Shown here piece after piece: positions 56,716 through 64,000 of a DNA stretch of 64,000 nucleotides (the first letter of the stretch is position 1; each line of letters begins with the position of its first letter). The notes beneath the pieces were generated by a model. The model worked only from the letters and a program-made list of their open reading frames with translations. It did no database searches and had not been told where the DNA came from. The position numbers and the translations under genes are program-made. The DNA is from Dioscorea cayenensis subsp. rotundata. Lineage: Eukaryota > Streptophyta > Magnoliopsida > Dioscoreales > Dioscoreaceae. The stretch lies in the NCBI RefSeq assembly GCF_009730915.1, contig NC_052475.1:29697016-29761015 (forward strand), read 5' to 3'.

Positions 56716-57467
56716 CCCGTCAGACTAATGAGTCATAAACTCGGTTTTTTTTAGGAAGACAACTCGGTTCGTCTTCGAACCGGGAAATTTTGTAGGTAAA
56801 CCCTTGCAAAATAGTCTAATTGCATAGAATTGTAACTTTGCATACATATCCTTGCTTAAATTGTACTCAATAGTCTCCTTGATTTTTAATTTTTTTTAAT
56901 AACAAATATTTTGACAGTAAAATTGGGATGAAAGATGAACATAAATGGAATTTTTAAGAAAAAACTATTAACTTTTGATCTTGCAATATATTTATAAATA
57001 CTAACATTTTTGGTGATATATATAGATTAATATAAAGTTTAATTTTTTTTTTTTAAATTGTATATAATTCTCTAAAATATATGTCATTCACAGATAGTAG
57101 AGCTCTCATGAAGAGTTTATTTTTATCAATCAAAGAGAACTGTCAATTGCTATGCGCTCTTATCTTTTAAGAGAGAAGGGAATCAAATCCATATTTTATG
57201 ATAAATAAGAGACCGAAGTGTTTTTTGGGCAAAAATTTTTTGGCATTCTCCTCTGTTATTTTTTAGTTATCAATTTTATTTAATTCACATCGATTAAGAA
57301 AAATTGATTAAAAGTAGTTGGTTACCTATATTTTATAAAATGTAAATTTAGAAAAAAAAAAATTAATGTTGCACAAAATTTCTAATGTGACAAATAAAAA
57401 AAAAACACAGCAGAGCTCTAAAATATGACAAGTAAAAAGAAACTTAAGGAGTATTATTTATTTTTGT
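56716..57467. other. Intergenic, PP2A-A promoter side
   Basis: Mostly AT-rich sequence between the PP2A-A leader and the left end of the large MULE. No gene seen. Confidence 0.55.
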
Positions 57468-58204
57468 GGAAATTGCCAAAAAAACCCTTTAAGTTTGTAA
57501 AATTGCCAAAAACACCCCATTAGTTTTGCAATCCCCAAAATCCCCCTCCTTTTAAACTCTATGTTTTTCAAACCCCCAAACCCCTAGAATCGGATGTGAA
57601 CTGGAGTGAGTTTCAAATTTTTTTGGACTGAAAATGCCCTTGCATGGGGAGTCGTGGTCGCAGCCCATCTCGGCGATTTGAGAGGAAGTGGGCGGTTTTC
57701 CGTAGGGGTAACCCCGAGAGGCTAATTTATTGGAGCCGCTTTAATTGCTTTTTCTCAACTCACGCCTTCGACTTTTCCATTTCGAGTCGCCTCCCAAGTT
57801 GTCTCTACGTCGAAGCCTCCTGAATCAGCATTTCATCGCCTTTTCCCTTTCCACCCAGATCTCGAAGGAGAAGTCCCCCATGCAACTAGTTGGCATTTCA
57901 TCAATTTGAAATCTAAGGTATTGAGTATGGTTTTTATGTTAACCTGCTCGCTACTAAAGAAAGATTTTTTTCGGTTTTGTTTTGTGCTCCCTGCTTTTTG
58001 TTGGAAGATATCGAAAGTCCGCAGGGGATTTCTACTGGGGTTTTGTTAGTCTCTGAGGGAGATTTCTACTCGGGGTTTTGTTTTGTTTTCAGTTTTCGTA
58101 TGTATACACTATCGAATTAGTTTTTTTCGATTGTTATGATTTGTGTAATATTTATAATGTACATTTCCCGCTTTCGCTTTGATATGGTTGCAGCTTTTAC
58201 AAAA

Positions 58205-58380
58205 CGAGGTTGACGCTTAAGAAATGAGATGTTACAGCTTTTAACATTTGTTGTCCCCTGCTTTAAGTATTCTCGCCTCTGCTTTAACAAAATGGGTCTC
58301 TGCTTTAACATTTTTATATCTCTGCTTTAATAACCGAGAGTTTACCGCTTAAAACCTTATATTTCCGCTTAAACTTTTTG
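58205..58380 (+). repeat. 21-nt periodic CTTTAA array 1
   Basis: Cores of GCTTTAA or CGCTTAA start at 58261, 58282, 58303, 58325, 58348 and 58368 (steps 21, 21, 22, 23, 20), with looser copies before. It lies just upstream of the first DUF1985 coding block, in its sense orientation. Confidence 0.85.
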
Positions 58381-59254
58381 TCAATACCGCATGTTGAATG
58401 TGTTGTTATTGTCAGCAGCTTGTGATTATGGCGGTCAACCTAGTTAACGGCCGATGCTATTTGACACCCAGTAGTGGAGACTTTAGTCGAATTGAAAAAA
58501 ATAACACGACCCTCGACATCGGGAGATTATTCGACTGACACCGTCTTGCAGCTGCTCATCGAGCTAGAAGCTATATACCAAGAGAGAGCCCTTCTTGATT
58601 CTCTTTTGCAAAGGTACGATGGTCGCACCAATAAATTCAGGATCGGGAAAGCCTCGCCGAAGCTTTCAGACCTCAAGATGTGGCCCTCGTGCTTGGTCTG
58701 CGTTGCGATGGCGACGCAGCTGGTCTTTCGTAAGAAGAAAACCAGTCGCGTCAAGGGCGGTATCTATCAAAGACTCTACGAGACACGGAGACTCCATCAA
58801 GAGCACTCGTCGCAACTTGTTCGACGGAGGGAGAAGAAGATAATTTCGTCAAACTCCCCGATGGTGTACCTCATGGGGACGATCCCTCTTCCCAAATACA
58901 TCATGCCTCGGTTCGAACTCGGATCGCTGATTACGCCGATGATCTACCGACCCATGGGGCGATCACGCACGGGCGCAGGGCGACGCATCAAGTGGCTTAT
59001 GGAGGATATTCCACAGCACTGCCCGAGTGCAAGATAGATGCGTCGGGAAGAAGACCAACACAGTGGTACATTAAGGGTTGCTCTGGCGCGCTTAACGTCC
59101 GGTTTTACGAGATGACCGGAACGGGGAAGAAAGTCCGCTTCTGCAAGATCCCAAGGATGTTGTGCTACTAATGAAAGTACTTACCCGAAGCAAGCGACGG
59201 TGAGAAACGAGCTTGTCATCGCTCGATGGAAAAAGAGGTAATAAATCATGGACA

Positions 59255-59435
59255 ATGTTTAACATAAGTCTTTAACGCTTTAAACATTTTATTTAGCGCT
59301 TTAACTTTAGTATTTACCGCTTTAACTCTTATTCATACTGGGTTTAAATATTTTGTTCTCCGCTTTAATTATATTCTATAACGCTTTAAATATATAAATA
59401 CCTGCTTTAAATATAGTTTTTTTATAGTTTAAAAT
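59255..59435 (+). repeat. 21-nt periodic CTTTAA array 2
   Basis: TTTAA cores start at 59279, 59300, 59321, 59343, 59364, 59385, 59406 and 59428 (steps 21, 21, 22, 21, 21, 21, 22), most within a CGCTTTAA(A/C) context. Two extra cores precede at 59258 and 59271. Lies between ULP1-gene coding blocks 1 and 2. Confidence 0.92.
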
Positions 59436-60709
59436 GAATGATTTCACTAAATTGTTTCGTTTACATATGTTAGTTTCTCGAAATGGTTCCCTAAGAATGT
59501 CAAGAAGAAATATTTGTTGAGGGCCAACCGACTGGATGGATGCCATCGCTCCCGAACCACTTGCTCGAGGCGTGGATGAGAGGGCGCCTCTATCGCGCTG
59601 CTCGGACGCCGCTCTCCCGCCTCAGCCCCCACCACGCCAAGACGCATTCCTCGACGCCGAGAAGCCCTCCCCTACCCCGCAGATCGCAACAACCCCCTAC
59701 CACGACAACGATAGGGGCCCCCGAGCGTGGCAGTACCGACCATGGCAGCCCTCCGACCGCTGGCAGCCCTCACCGGTGACATTAGGGCGAAGATATCACC
59801 ACGAACTCTTACGCAGTCATGCCGGATATTGACGACCGAGTTTCTCGCTTGTCGCCAGTGTCGAGGTGCCGGAAGGACGTTTCACAAATCGACCGCGCCT
59901 ATCCTCGAAAGAATCAAGCACCCGGACTGAACGAGGCGCTGGAATTTGACGACGAGGACATCATCTGGGAAGGTCATTCCAAGGCGGCCACATTCAAGAG
60001 ACTTGCGAAAAAGAGGAGAACAATATCGCCTCGTCTCCACCGCCGGCCGACGATGAAACAATAGCAACACCATCGGCACTGACGTCGTTGCTGAGAAGGA
60101 CATCGAGATGATGCGGTCGCTGCTGCCGCTGAGAAGGCCGCCGACTCTCTCTCGATGAAATCCTCGACCCGTGGAACCGGCCGCGAGATCGTGCATCAAA
60201 GATGGACACAATCAATGAAGATCAAGAACAAGTTAAGGGTGTGTCCCCAATGATGCCGTTGTCTACGGCCACGGTTGAGAAGATCGTCGAACTGCCGCTG
60301 CCGCGCGGACGCGGCCGACAAGATCGCAGCCCAAGCGAGACACAATTCCACCACAACAAGAACCATGTAAGGATGTGTTCATGGGTCTGATGCTGCCGTC
60401 TGCCGTCTCCAGCATCGAAGCCGACACAATCCCACAACAAGAACAACCATGTAAGGATGTGTCTGCAGCTGATGTCGTCGCCATCGCCCCCGCGATCGAA
60501 GGAAGATGTCGTCAAGACCCCGACCGAGCAACGAGAGAGATGATCAAGGCCAATCAAACATTGGACTGCATCTGCTCGGAAAGCTTTTTATTCAAGAAGA
60601 AGAAATGGGTTGGCTCGAGTCGTTTTAACAAATACGAAAGCAGGAGTTGATGAGGATCTTCCTCAACTCGCTCTATGGGACGAGTAAGTGTAAAGTTTTT
60701 TTATGATAT

Positions 60710-60882
60710 TGTTTAAAGGTTTTATTATAGTGTTTAACAATTACCTAATAGTGTTTAATACCTTTATGTTATCATTTAATTTGTCTACTTAACATTTAAT
60801 TATATATAATATCATGTAACAATTGATAATATCATTTAAATATTTATAATATGGTCTTATTATATCTCATTATCGTTTAACC
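60710..60882 (+). repeat. 21-nt periodic GTTTAA array 3
   Basis: TTTAA cores at 60712, 60733, 60754, 60775, 60795, (variant 60815), 60835 and 60876. Steps are 21, 21, 21, 20, 20, 20 and then twice 20.5. Lies between ULP1-gene blocks 2 and 3, following a GTAAGTG donor-like site at 60684-60690. Confidence 0.9.
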
Positions 60883-61745
60883 TCAAGACTGTCGTGTGGA
60901 AGAACGACGTCGTCAACACCACACGCGACAAATTATACACTGCCGCTGAGGGGAAGGAGATGGTCATCGATGATGTGATGGGACGCTTTCAGTATGCATA
61001 ATACAAAAAGTCGCCGAGCAAAGAGCCATATCCTTACAAGAAGCGCCTCCATCACCGGACCGCTTACGCTGTTTATGCCCAAGCAGGGAAGACGCACATG
61101 ACACGATTATGGCTATGATCGGGGATGTCGTCGCAAGAACTCGCATGAAGTTCAAATTGTCATCCTCCCGATAATCATGAATGACCACTTCCATGTCGTC
61201 GTCCTGGACAATGATAAACAAGAATACAGTGCATTATTCTTCATGTCCGGTACGATAAGGGACGCGTTGGACATGGTAAGTTCTTTAATTATGGCATATT
61301 AATATCCGCTTTGGTATTTAAATCGCTATTCTAATCTCGACTTGCATATCTCGGACAATGGAATCTATTCGACAATTGTGTCGATATGGAGTTCGACGAG
61401 TCGGCGACGGCTAAGTACCCACTGCGCGACGACATAGAAACCCGACGCTAAAAACAAGGAAGCGTCGATTGCGCCGCGTCACGCCATGCGCTTTTATCGA
61501 GCAATTACTGCGGGGTGAGAAGTTACGGCTACCGCAGACAGACGTTCCTTACCTCAGATTATGGTATGTTACCCGCATACTTAAGGAGGGAAGGGCAGTA
61601 GGCGTCCCATGACAAAGGGGGGTCGTCACAAGCGGGTTAAATTTTGTTTTTCAAGAACATGTCCTGTATATCTGAATGTCAATTTTATTTTCGAATGTAA
61701 ATCTGGACAAATTCAATTCATTGTTTTCGTGTTCGAAGAGCATGA

Positions 61746-62240
61746 CTTGTATATGTTAATGTAAATTTTGTTTGTTTTGAATTGTAAAGCAGGTTAAATT
61801 CCATTCAGTTTCATTTCATTGTTTAATTTACGTTCTAATTGTGTACATTTCACTTTCATTGTTTAAATATACTATATATCGTTTAAACATCGCTTTTAAA
61901 TATTTCAAAAATACGTGTACTCTGCTTTAAAAATAACACTTGCCTCTGTTTAACTAAATGCATTCATTGTTTAAATAAATATGGGAAGTTGCCCATCAAT
62001 AACTTGTATATCTCAATGTAAAGTTTGTTTGTTTTCAATTGTAAGGCAGGTTAAATTTCATTCAGTTTCATTTTATTGTTTAATTTACGTTGTAGTTGTG
62101 TACATTTCCGTTTCATTGTTTAAATATACCATATATCGTTTAAACATCAGTTGAAATATTTCAAATTACAGTGTATCCGTTTAAAATAACAATGTCTCTG
62201 TTTAAATACATTCAATTCGTTGTAAAGAGTAAGAGTTTAA
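61746..62240 (+). repeat. Tandem direct repeat, about 257-bp unit, with array 4
   Basis: Two diverged copies: ACTTGTATATGTTAATGTAA at about 61745 and ACTTGTATATCTCAATGTAA at about 62001, each followed by GCAGGTTAAATT, TTTAATTTACGTT and ATATCGTTTAAACATC. TTTAA cores fall at about 20-21-nt steps or multiples (61862, 61882; 62079, 62119, 62139, 62180, 62201). A partial third copy begins near 61660. Lies between the two convergent genes. Confidence 0.8.
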
Positions 62241-62339
62241 ATATGGAAACAACTCCATCAATACACAATGTTTCCACATCGTACTTCGGGCTTATTAACA
62301 ATACCTAGTCGAGCCACGGTTTCATTGCAAGATCGTCGA

Positions 62340-63990
62340 TTGTGACCCGAATCCATGGCGGTAGCTGCAATGTAACTTCGCGGGACATCAAACGCTTGCG
62401 ACTCGATCCTCTTTTCGTCTAGGCCGCCCGTGTCGCCTACTCGTCACGGTGATCGCAAAGCGAAGCTCACGATTTCCCGTCGAAGGCACATCGTACGTCG
62501 GGTATGGGGAATATAGCTTCCTTGTCGCATGAGTTTGTAATTGTCGACGGTGAAGTACCCGCTAATAAATCGATGTACGTTGGTGTGCATGCGTTATTGC
62601 TTTAGCATAGCGTGTTTTCGCGAGGGATACCATAAACTTGCCACCTTCGACATGAACAAGTTACGATGGCGAGATCCACGGAGTTCTTTCGACTGGTCGA
62701 TCACTTCCGTAGCGATCGTCGACCAGACGACCAACACGAAGATTTCGGTCGTCCTCAACAATGATCGCTACCTTGGAATGTATGTCAGGGCAGCAGTAGG
62801 TCTCCCATTTGTTCAGCTTGCTCGCGTGGGTTACATAACATGCGCATCAACTTGAACACAGCAAATAAGGTTAAACAAAAGGCGAGTGATGGTTAAATAA
62901 TTCAGTAAACATGTTTAAACATTATTGTAAATATTTAAAGCGAAAGGATTAATATTTAAAAGTCGAGACAAGTGTAATTAAACAAAGATTGAGAATGTTT
63001 AAAGGGTAACACTAAATGTTAAGTGTAAACCAACATTCGCGAGACCTTATGGAGTCGACCATTTTCGTCACCCTAGGTAAATGGCGAGCTTCCTTGATCC
63101 AAGCATTGAGCGACTCCGCGACGTTTGAATACATCTCACCCCAACGATCGCCTCCGAGCGGATAATTCGACCCGATGTGCCATATCAGGTTTATTAATCA
63201 ACCCGGGTGATGAGCTTCGGGTGATGTGGCTGCGAGTTCATTCAGCGGTATCATCGAAATCTTTAGCCGTGGATGCCCAGCATGATGCGGAAGCATATAG
63301 ACCCGAGCACTCCTCCCTCAATGCCTTCCCAAGTCGGACGTTGGCTTTCGTAAAATTGGCCTCAGAATGTCGAAGGCAGTATGCGTGTGGCGAAGAAGGG
63401 AAGACTCTGCGATTGCGCTCACAAGGCCCTTGGACTCGTCCGACACGAAGGTAATTATCTCATGATAATCTCCATCCTCGTATAAGGCGTCGCCCTAACT
63501 TAGATATGAACCAAGTCCATTGGCGTCGGTCTCGTTGTCGATTATCACAGAAAGCGGCGATGGAAAAAAACCATTGTTTCCATCTTTCCTGTGCGCCCGA
63601 TGAGTGTACCCGATATTTTTCCAAGGAGGTGGGTACCGTCGAGAAAGCATGACTGACTGCAAAGCCCTCTTGAATCCCATGATACACTGCTGAAAAGAAA
63701 AGAATGCACGTTTAAAAGCGATCACCGTCTCTTTCCACGATCGCCATGACTGCCGGGATTTGTCTCGGCCACCTTATCCACATACCAAAGCAAAGCGATC
63801 AGTGGCTGGAGATGTCATGCCAGTCGAGGACCACCCGGGCATGCTCTTTTTCCCAACCAAGCACGCTTGTATGGTATGTGGACACCATGTTCCCATAGCA
63901 TGTCCTTACGAATGTCGATGGCCTTGTCATGAGGGGACGGTCCTCGAGCTTCGAATCACTTTCGTGCGCTAACCCAGTTTTTGGGCGCTT
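62340..63990 (-). pseudogene. MURA-type Mutator transposase of the MULE
   Basis: Read on the minus strand from the right edge. KADYKIRLPYHQAW-like and RVVLD segments (near 63950-63810) precede FFSFQQCIMGFKRAL and the first catalytic Asp in LDGTHLL (63621-63650). RKDGNNGFFP and DNETDAN follow, then the second Asp region with DESKGLVSAI (63420-63450), a CLRHFEANFTKANV-like strand, YSNVAESLNAWIKEA (about 63090-63140) and a SWIM-type zinc-finger remnant CSCRRWQVYGIP (about 62620-62660). The tail ends in a CCHC-like SGHNRRSCNE (about 62300-62350). Frameshifts split it into at least three frames. An intron at about 62860-63030 carries array 5. The N-terminus lies outside the window. Confidence 0.8.
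62868..63022 (-). repeat. 21-nt periodic TTTAA array 5, minus-strand orientation
   Basis: Complementary TTAAA cores start at 62871, 62893, 62915, 62935, 62956, 62978, 62999 and near 63019 (steps 22, 22, 20, 21, 22, 21, 20). On the minus strand the cores read GTTTAAAC, GCTTTAAAT and GTTTAACC. Unlike arrays 1-4 it points leftward, matching the minus-strand MURA intron that holds it. Confidence 0.92.
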
Positions 63991-64000
63991 TCGGATGTGA

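Follow-up and report, generated by a model that had tools for sequence, protein, structure and literature searches.

VANDAL elements encode VANC, a DUF1985 protein with anti-silencing activity, of which one form, VANC6, is described as using another motif (Hosaka 2017, PMC5735166), and such systems have been placed in Arabidopsis and eudicots (PMC10398659; PMC13317346). A review reports that Ulp1-bearing VANC genes (KAONASHI/KIU) act on motifs within the elements that carry them, with KIU described for Arabidopsis and eudicots and Ulp1 elements also for rice (PMC13317346). For plant mobile domain (PMD) proteins captured by Mutator-like elements, the authors speculate on an anti-silencing use (Ikeda 2017, PMC5418596).

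The window analysed here, a 64,000-nucleotide stretch of the Dioscorea cayenensis subsp. rotundata genome, contains most of a Mutator-like element with two convergent genes, DUF1985/Ulp1 on the left (plus strand) and MURA on the right (minus strand), and with dense, short, same-orientation motifs mainly in its noncoding regions, one block (B2) being mixed (Table 1). Like VANDAL21 and VANDAL6 of Arabidopsis, it carries a transposase gene and a DUF1985 gene, and like VANC targets it carries a dense, family-specific motif in one orientation in introns and spacers (PMC5735166); Ulp1 in a VANC-like gene beside MURA recalls the KIU genes of non-TIR Mutator-like elements (PMC13317346). Judged by sequence, this anatomy appears to match VANC targets in most testable features (PMC5735166; PMC10398659), and where the sequence-only reading knew of no named element of this description, the target arrays of VANDAL elements come close (PMC5735166; PMC13317346). 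Unlike Arabidopsis VANC targets, the motifs found here are GTTTAA, TGTGTATA and, weakly, RCTTAA, and the arrays, known from sequence alone, have a common spacing of 20–21 nt (PMC5735166); the words spacing, interval, periodic and helical are absent from the main text of Hosaka 2017 (PMC5735166). We found no report of phased spacing of such arrays in the open-licence literature, the primary eudicot study lying outside that scope. The primary paper on Ulp1-bearing VANC genes is Sasaki 2022.

Table 1. Features of the element in window coordinates.
Feature	Position	Strand	Remarks
Mutator-like element	57466..64000, on to ~66875 past window end	+	9410 bp in total; extent common to sibling copies
Element ends and target duplication			ends GTGGAAATTGCC / GGAAAAATTATT; 9-bp duplication TTTATTTTT
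Array A1	58205..58391	+	probably intron upstream of DUF1985 exon
DUF1985/plant-mobile-domain (VANC-like) exon	58465..59214	+	frame broken in window copy
Intron with array A2	59238..59473	+	GT..AG by eye
Intron with array A3	60684..60887	+	GT..AG by eye
Ulp1 (C48 peptidase) region	60890..61612	+	broken frames; limits judged by eye
Array A4, two related blocks	61641..62261	+	apparently spacer between convergent genes
MURA transposase gene	62300..64000, continues past window	-	limits approximate; domains from sibling copies
Array A5	62860..63035	-	probably MURA gene intron

A similarity search of the genome (584 Mb, 2249 contigs) yielded, from 1444 first-look candidates, 40 scored places with 94–100% identity, own copy included, and the recurrence of the arrays in these places rules out a private minisatellite of one copy, one of the outcomes that the sequence-only reading had named as fatal to it. 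Ten window-family copies, the top of the similarity list, set the limits of the 9.4-kb element; E04 (a second copy), E08 (internal deletion) and E09 (inversion) were omitted from the window-family rows of the motif and step table, the exon tree and the tblastn comparison. The element is of the non-TIR type: an exact 9-bp target site duplication is present in five of the ten copies scanned (E01, E03, E05, E08 and E10) and was not found in the remaining five, and the ends are short and imperfect, alike by eye over only ~12 bases, with no long terminal repeats.

That the element encodes a DUF1985 protein is seen from the open reading frame of a related locus, L016, which aligns to the window by tblastn in two frames (58665–59168, E = 1.6e-33; 58555–59214, E = 2.8e-21); a Pfam scan of ten pieces from the window's reading frames yielded no match at or above the cut-off, DUF1985 included. 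The L016 exon (L016:1378–2124) gives a stronger match to the plant mobile domain (PF10536, 9.5e-14) than to DUF1985 (PF09331, 4.5e-10), which suggests that the two families are related. In scoring on both it resembles the PMD proteins captured by Mutator-like elements, whose PMD is fused to the transposase, unlike here; the part of that paper considered mentions no DNA arrays (Ikeda 2017, PMC5418596). Neither of the two single exons scanned showed DUF287, the second VANC domain. The C48 domain in the DUF1985 gene is borderline in the window family, where one sibling piece (L023:6062–6373) matches PF02902 at E = 4.5e-4 and 20.6 bits, just short of the 20.7 cut-off, and the other three of the four sibling pieces scanned have no C48 match. 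At two related loci of cluster 1 (see below), L011 and L052, C48 stands above the cut-off, 2.1–2.6 kb downstream of DUF1985 on the same strand, and at least 20 such pairs were counted by eye among the matches listed. Sibling copies carry MULE and DBD_Tnp_Mut domains (PF10551, 1.9e-20; PF03108, 7.3e-23), which mark a MURA-type transposase, and the initial identification of a ULP1/MURA Mutator-like element holds, C48 being borderline in one sibling. A 78-nt tandem repeat of 2.2 copies in the presumed coding part of a single locus (L015:3180–3348) is reminiscent of the repeated peptides in VANC variable regions.

The arrays themselves, claimed at first sight to have a period of about 21 nt, are real. 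Between 57900 and 63100, 42 plus-strand TTTAA sites form 4, 14 and 4 pairs at lags 20, 21 and 22, with more pairs at lags 40–44 and 60–64, and the 231 plus-strand sites in the rest of the window form 1, 1 and 1, with no peak. Dinucleotide shuffles matched the sense pair count at lags 20–22 in 0 of 2000 trials for A1, A2, A3 and A5 and in 3 of 2000 for each of A4a and A4b; on the antisense strand the matching shuffles per 2000 numbered 24 (A1), 5 (A2), 2000 (A3), 86 (A4a), 0 (A4b) and 1 (A5), signals that probably arise because TTTAAA is palindromic. The steps first read in the second array (21, 21, 22, 21, 21, 21, 22) were reproduced exactly, and for the fifth array the first six of seven were recovered, the seventh not being among them. 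A2 and A3 lie in introns whose GT..AG limits were read by eye; A4 appears to be intergenic and not intronic. This spacer array (61641–62261) is built from a pair of related ~230-bp blocks in direct duplication, an arrangement also present in sibling copies.

Orientation was counted per block in 6 to 10 window-family copies, with lag pairs taken at 19–23. Plus-strand sites and lag pairs numbered 67 and 51 in A1 (9 copies), 95 and 73 in A2 (10 copies), 41 and 17 in A3 (10 copies) and 66 and 27 in A4 (6 copies), versus 8, 9, 9 and 9 minus-strand sites, respectively, with no lag pair; A5 (8 copies) is reversed, with 41 minus-strand sites and 20 lag pairs versus 14 plus-strand sites and none. Beyond the window, B1, B3 and B4 have 11, 9 and 10 lag pairs on the minus strand versus 1, 0 and 0 on the plus strand, and B2 is mixed, with 17 and 21 on the two strands; B2–B4 sit right of MURA. 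Lag pairs are thus present in nine of the ten places examined in the element, the small intron A3b having none in window-family copies. Apart from B2, the arrays are oriented like the gene in their own half of the element, so that the proposed link to gene strand stands for A1–A4 (plus) and A5, B1, B3 and B4 (minus) and fails for B2.

We then compared relatives of the left gene. A PF09331 search of the genome gave 150 scored hits from 455 candidates, of which 29 loci were read (the 12 best by score and 17 picked down the list), falling into four clusters. Cluster 1 (10 loci) carries GTTTAA, with a significant array in nine of its loci, in both introns in six; in L019, L043 and L056 only one of the two introns passes, L053 has no significant array, and for L011 and L015 the top 6-mer of the upstream intron comes from elsewhere in the unit. 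Cluster 2 (6 loci) carries TGTGTATA, significant in all members except L048 (5 of 6) and in the downstream intron only, and in cluster 3 (2 loci) one of four introns passed, with the 6-mer ATTTAG, RCTTAA being a weak motif picked by eye afterwards. The remaining 11 loci, cluster 0 (L009, L013, L014, L017, L044–L046, L049–L051 and L055), show no significant array in either homologous intron by the 6-mer test, so DUF1985 does not imply arrays; either this cluster no longer has the system or it recognises sites of a different kind. A DNA tree built from 36 DUF1985 exons recovers clusters 0, 2 and 3 and the window family as single groups, each with starred support, and places the window family within cluster 1.

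Across these families the motif changes and the spacing stays near 20–21 nt. GTTTAA in cluster 1 occurs 113 times in sense and 21 in antisense, with 70 steps of 19–23 (mean 20.37) and none below 19; TGTGTA in cluster 2 occurs 46 times and once, with 26 such steps (mean 20.85); and RCTTAA in cluster 3 occurs 13 and 4 times, with 5 (mean 20.60). No cluster has sense steps of 19–23 for another cluster's motif; cluster 1 has four TGTGTA gaps of 38–45, and cluster 3 one antisense RCTTAA step. Sense arrays spaced near 20–21 nt and flanking DUF1985 exons therefore recur in independent families, firmly for GTTTAA and TGTGTATA and weakly for RCTTAA, and the suggested period of about two helical turns is borne out by mean steps of 20.4, 20.9 and 20.6 nt in clusters 1, 2 and 3.

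The exact step of 21 appears to be a slight overestimate, probably from assembly errors, the period lying near 20–21: homologous introns of relatives step mostly by 20 (50 of 70 steps within 19–23). On inspection of intron A2 in 13 copies, a given unit switches from copy to copy between GCTTTAA, GCTTAA and GTTTAA at CG spots, and the AT spacer varies little; mean variability is 0.063 in CG-motif columns versus 0.044 elsewhere, a weak test, since elsewhere includes a scrambled exon end. This toggling makes assembly error likelier than GCTTTAA as a derived motif of the window family, an idea that we dropped; mostly by inspection, the GCTTTAA form is probably in part such an error, adding ~1 nt per unit, and consensus errors at probably methylated CG sites would lie behind it. 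The left-gene frames (58465–61612) are broken in the window copy and nine siblings, with differences clustering at CG-rich spots where aligned. The breaks look like long-read consensus error in methylated DNA and not independent decay alone, and CG-site errors may explain part of them.

Given the match to published VANC targets, we read the arrays as sites of the element's own VANC-like protein, and consider it likely that they are clustered binding sites for an anti-silencing product of the left gene (DUF1985/PMD plus Ulp1, VANC/KIU-like). The DUF1985 protein would bind the phased motifs of its own element; sites about every two helical turns would set neighbouring molecules on one face of the DNA and allow cooperative binding, dense same-orientation arrays would give specificity beyond that of single short motifs, and the bound protein would keep the element free of silencing. 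We think it unlikely that the arrays are instead degenerate minisatellites, functionless products of slippage in AT-rich noncoding DNA that were carried by transposition and took their spacing from the first duplication. Tandem repeats do expand easily, and the arrays of homologous introns may descend from a single ancestor, but the short core keeps phase where the rest of the unit is poorly conserved, two firm cores and one weak one have nearly the same phase, and the lag pairs, found in nearly every place examined (nine of ten), lie mostly on the nearby gene's strand. Binding by the MURA transposase or a host factor, where two-turn phasing would help to assemble the transpososome or to bend the DNA, seems more improbable still: arrays occur throughout the element, right end region included, and such phasing suits a DNA-bound assembly, yet most lag pairs lie in left-gene introns, whereas transposases usually act at element ends. 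An RNA-level role as repeated branch-point-like or splicing-enhancer sites, the former raised in the sequence-only reading from the likeness of TTAAC/TTAAT to branch points, would be in keeping with sense orientation in introns but is very improbable, and branch-point arrays are rejected, because A4 appears to lie outside introns in the spacer between genes, another family uses TGTGTATA, and the 6-mer test finds no significant array at 11 related loci in the homologous introns. Phasing by 21-nt small RNAs was ruled out by steps that drift between 19 and 23.

The GTTTAA spacing is specific genome-wide, with 16,076 overlapping triplets at lag 19–22 versus 33 in a reversed-pattern control, and 9, 11 and 37 at lags 9–12, 24–27 and 29–32 (controls 29, 26 and 52). 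For TGTGTATA the triplets at lag 19–22 number 116 versus 12, a count inflated by some plain TGTATATG-type simple repeats. If the arrays are indeed sites of DUF1985 proteins, a bolder version, which we hold to be possible though doubtful, is a phased anti-silencing code in which DUF1985/PMD–Ulp1 proteins bind cooperatively on one face, the two-turn step is fixed, and a change of the word alone lets one family escape another. Were it true, those 16,076 phased triplets in one genome would mark a very large transposon-encoded chromatin-targeting system. The main reading would extend sequence-specific anti-silencing of the VANC/KIU type, in very many copies, to one more plant genome; it would also suggest a spacing rule, two helical turns, not found in the key paper's main text, and provide pairs of protein and motif within a single genome from which to learn the way DUF1985 proteins read DNA.

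Two further GTTTAA runs, at C1:25732–26740 and C1:1109467–1110651, have a fresher unit near GTTTAAGAAATGAGTTTTCT and form a further array subtype.
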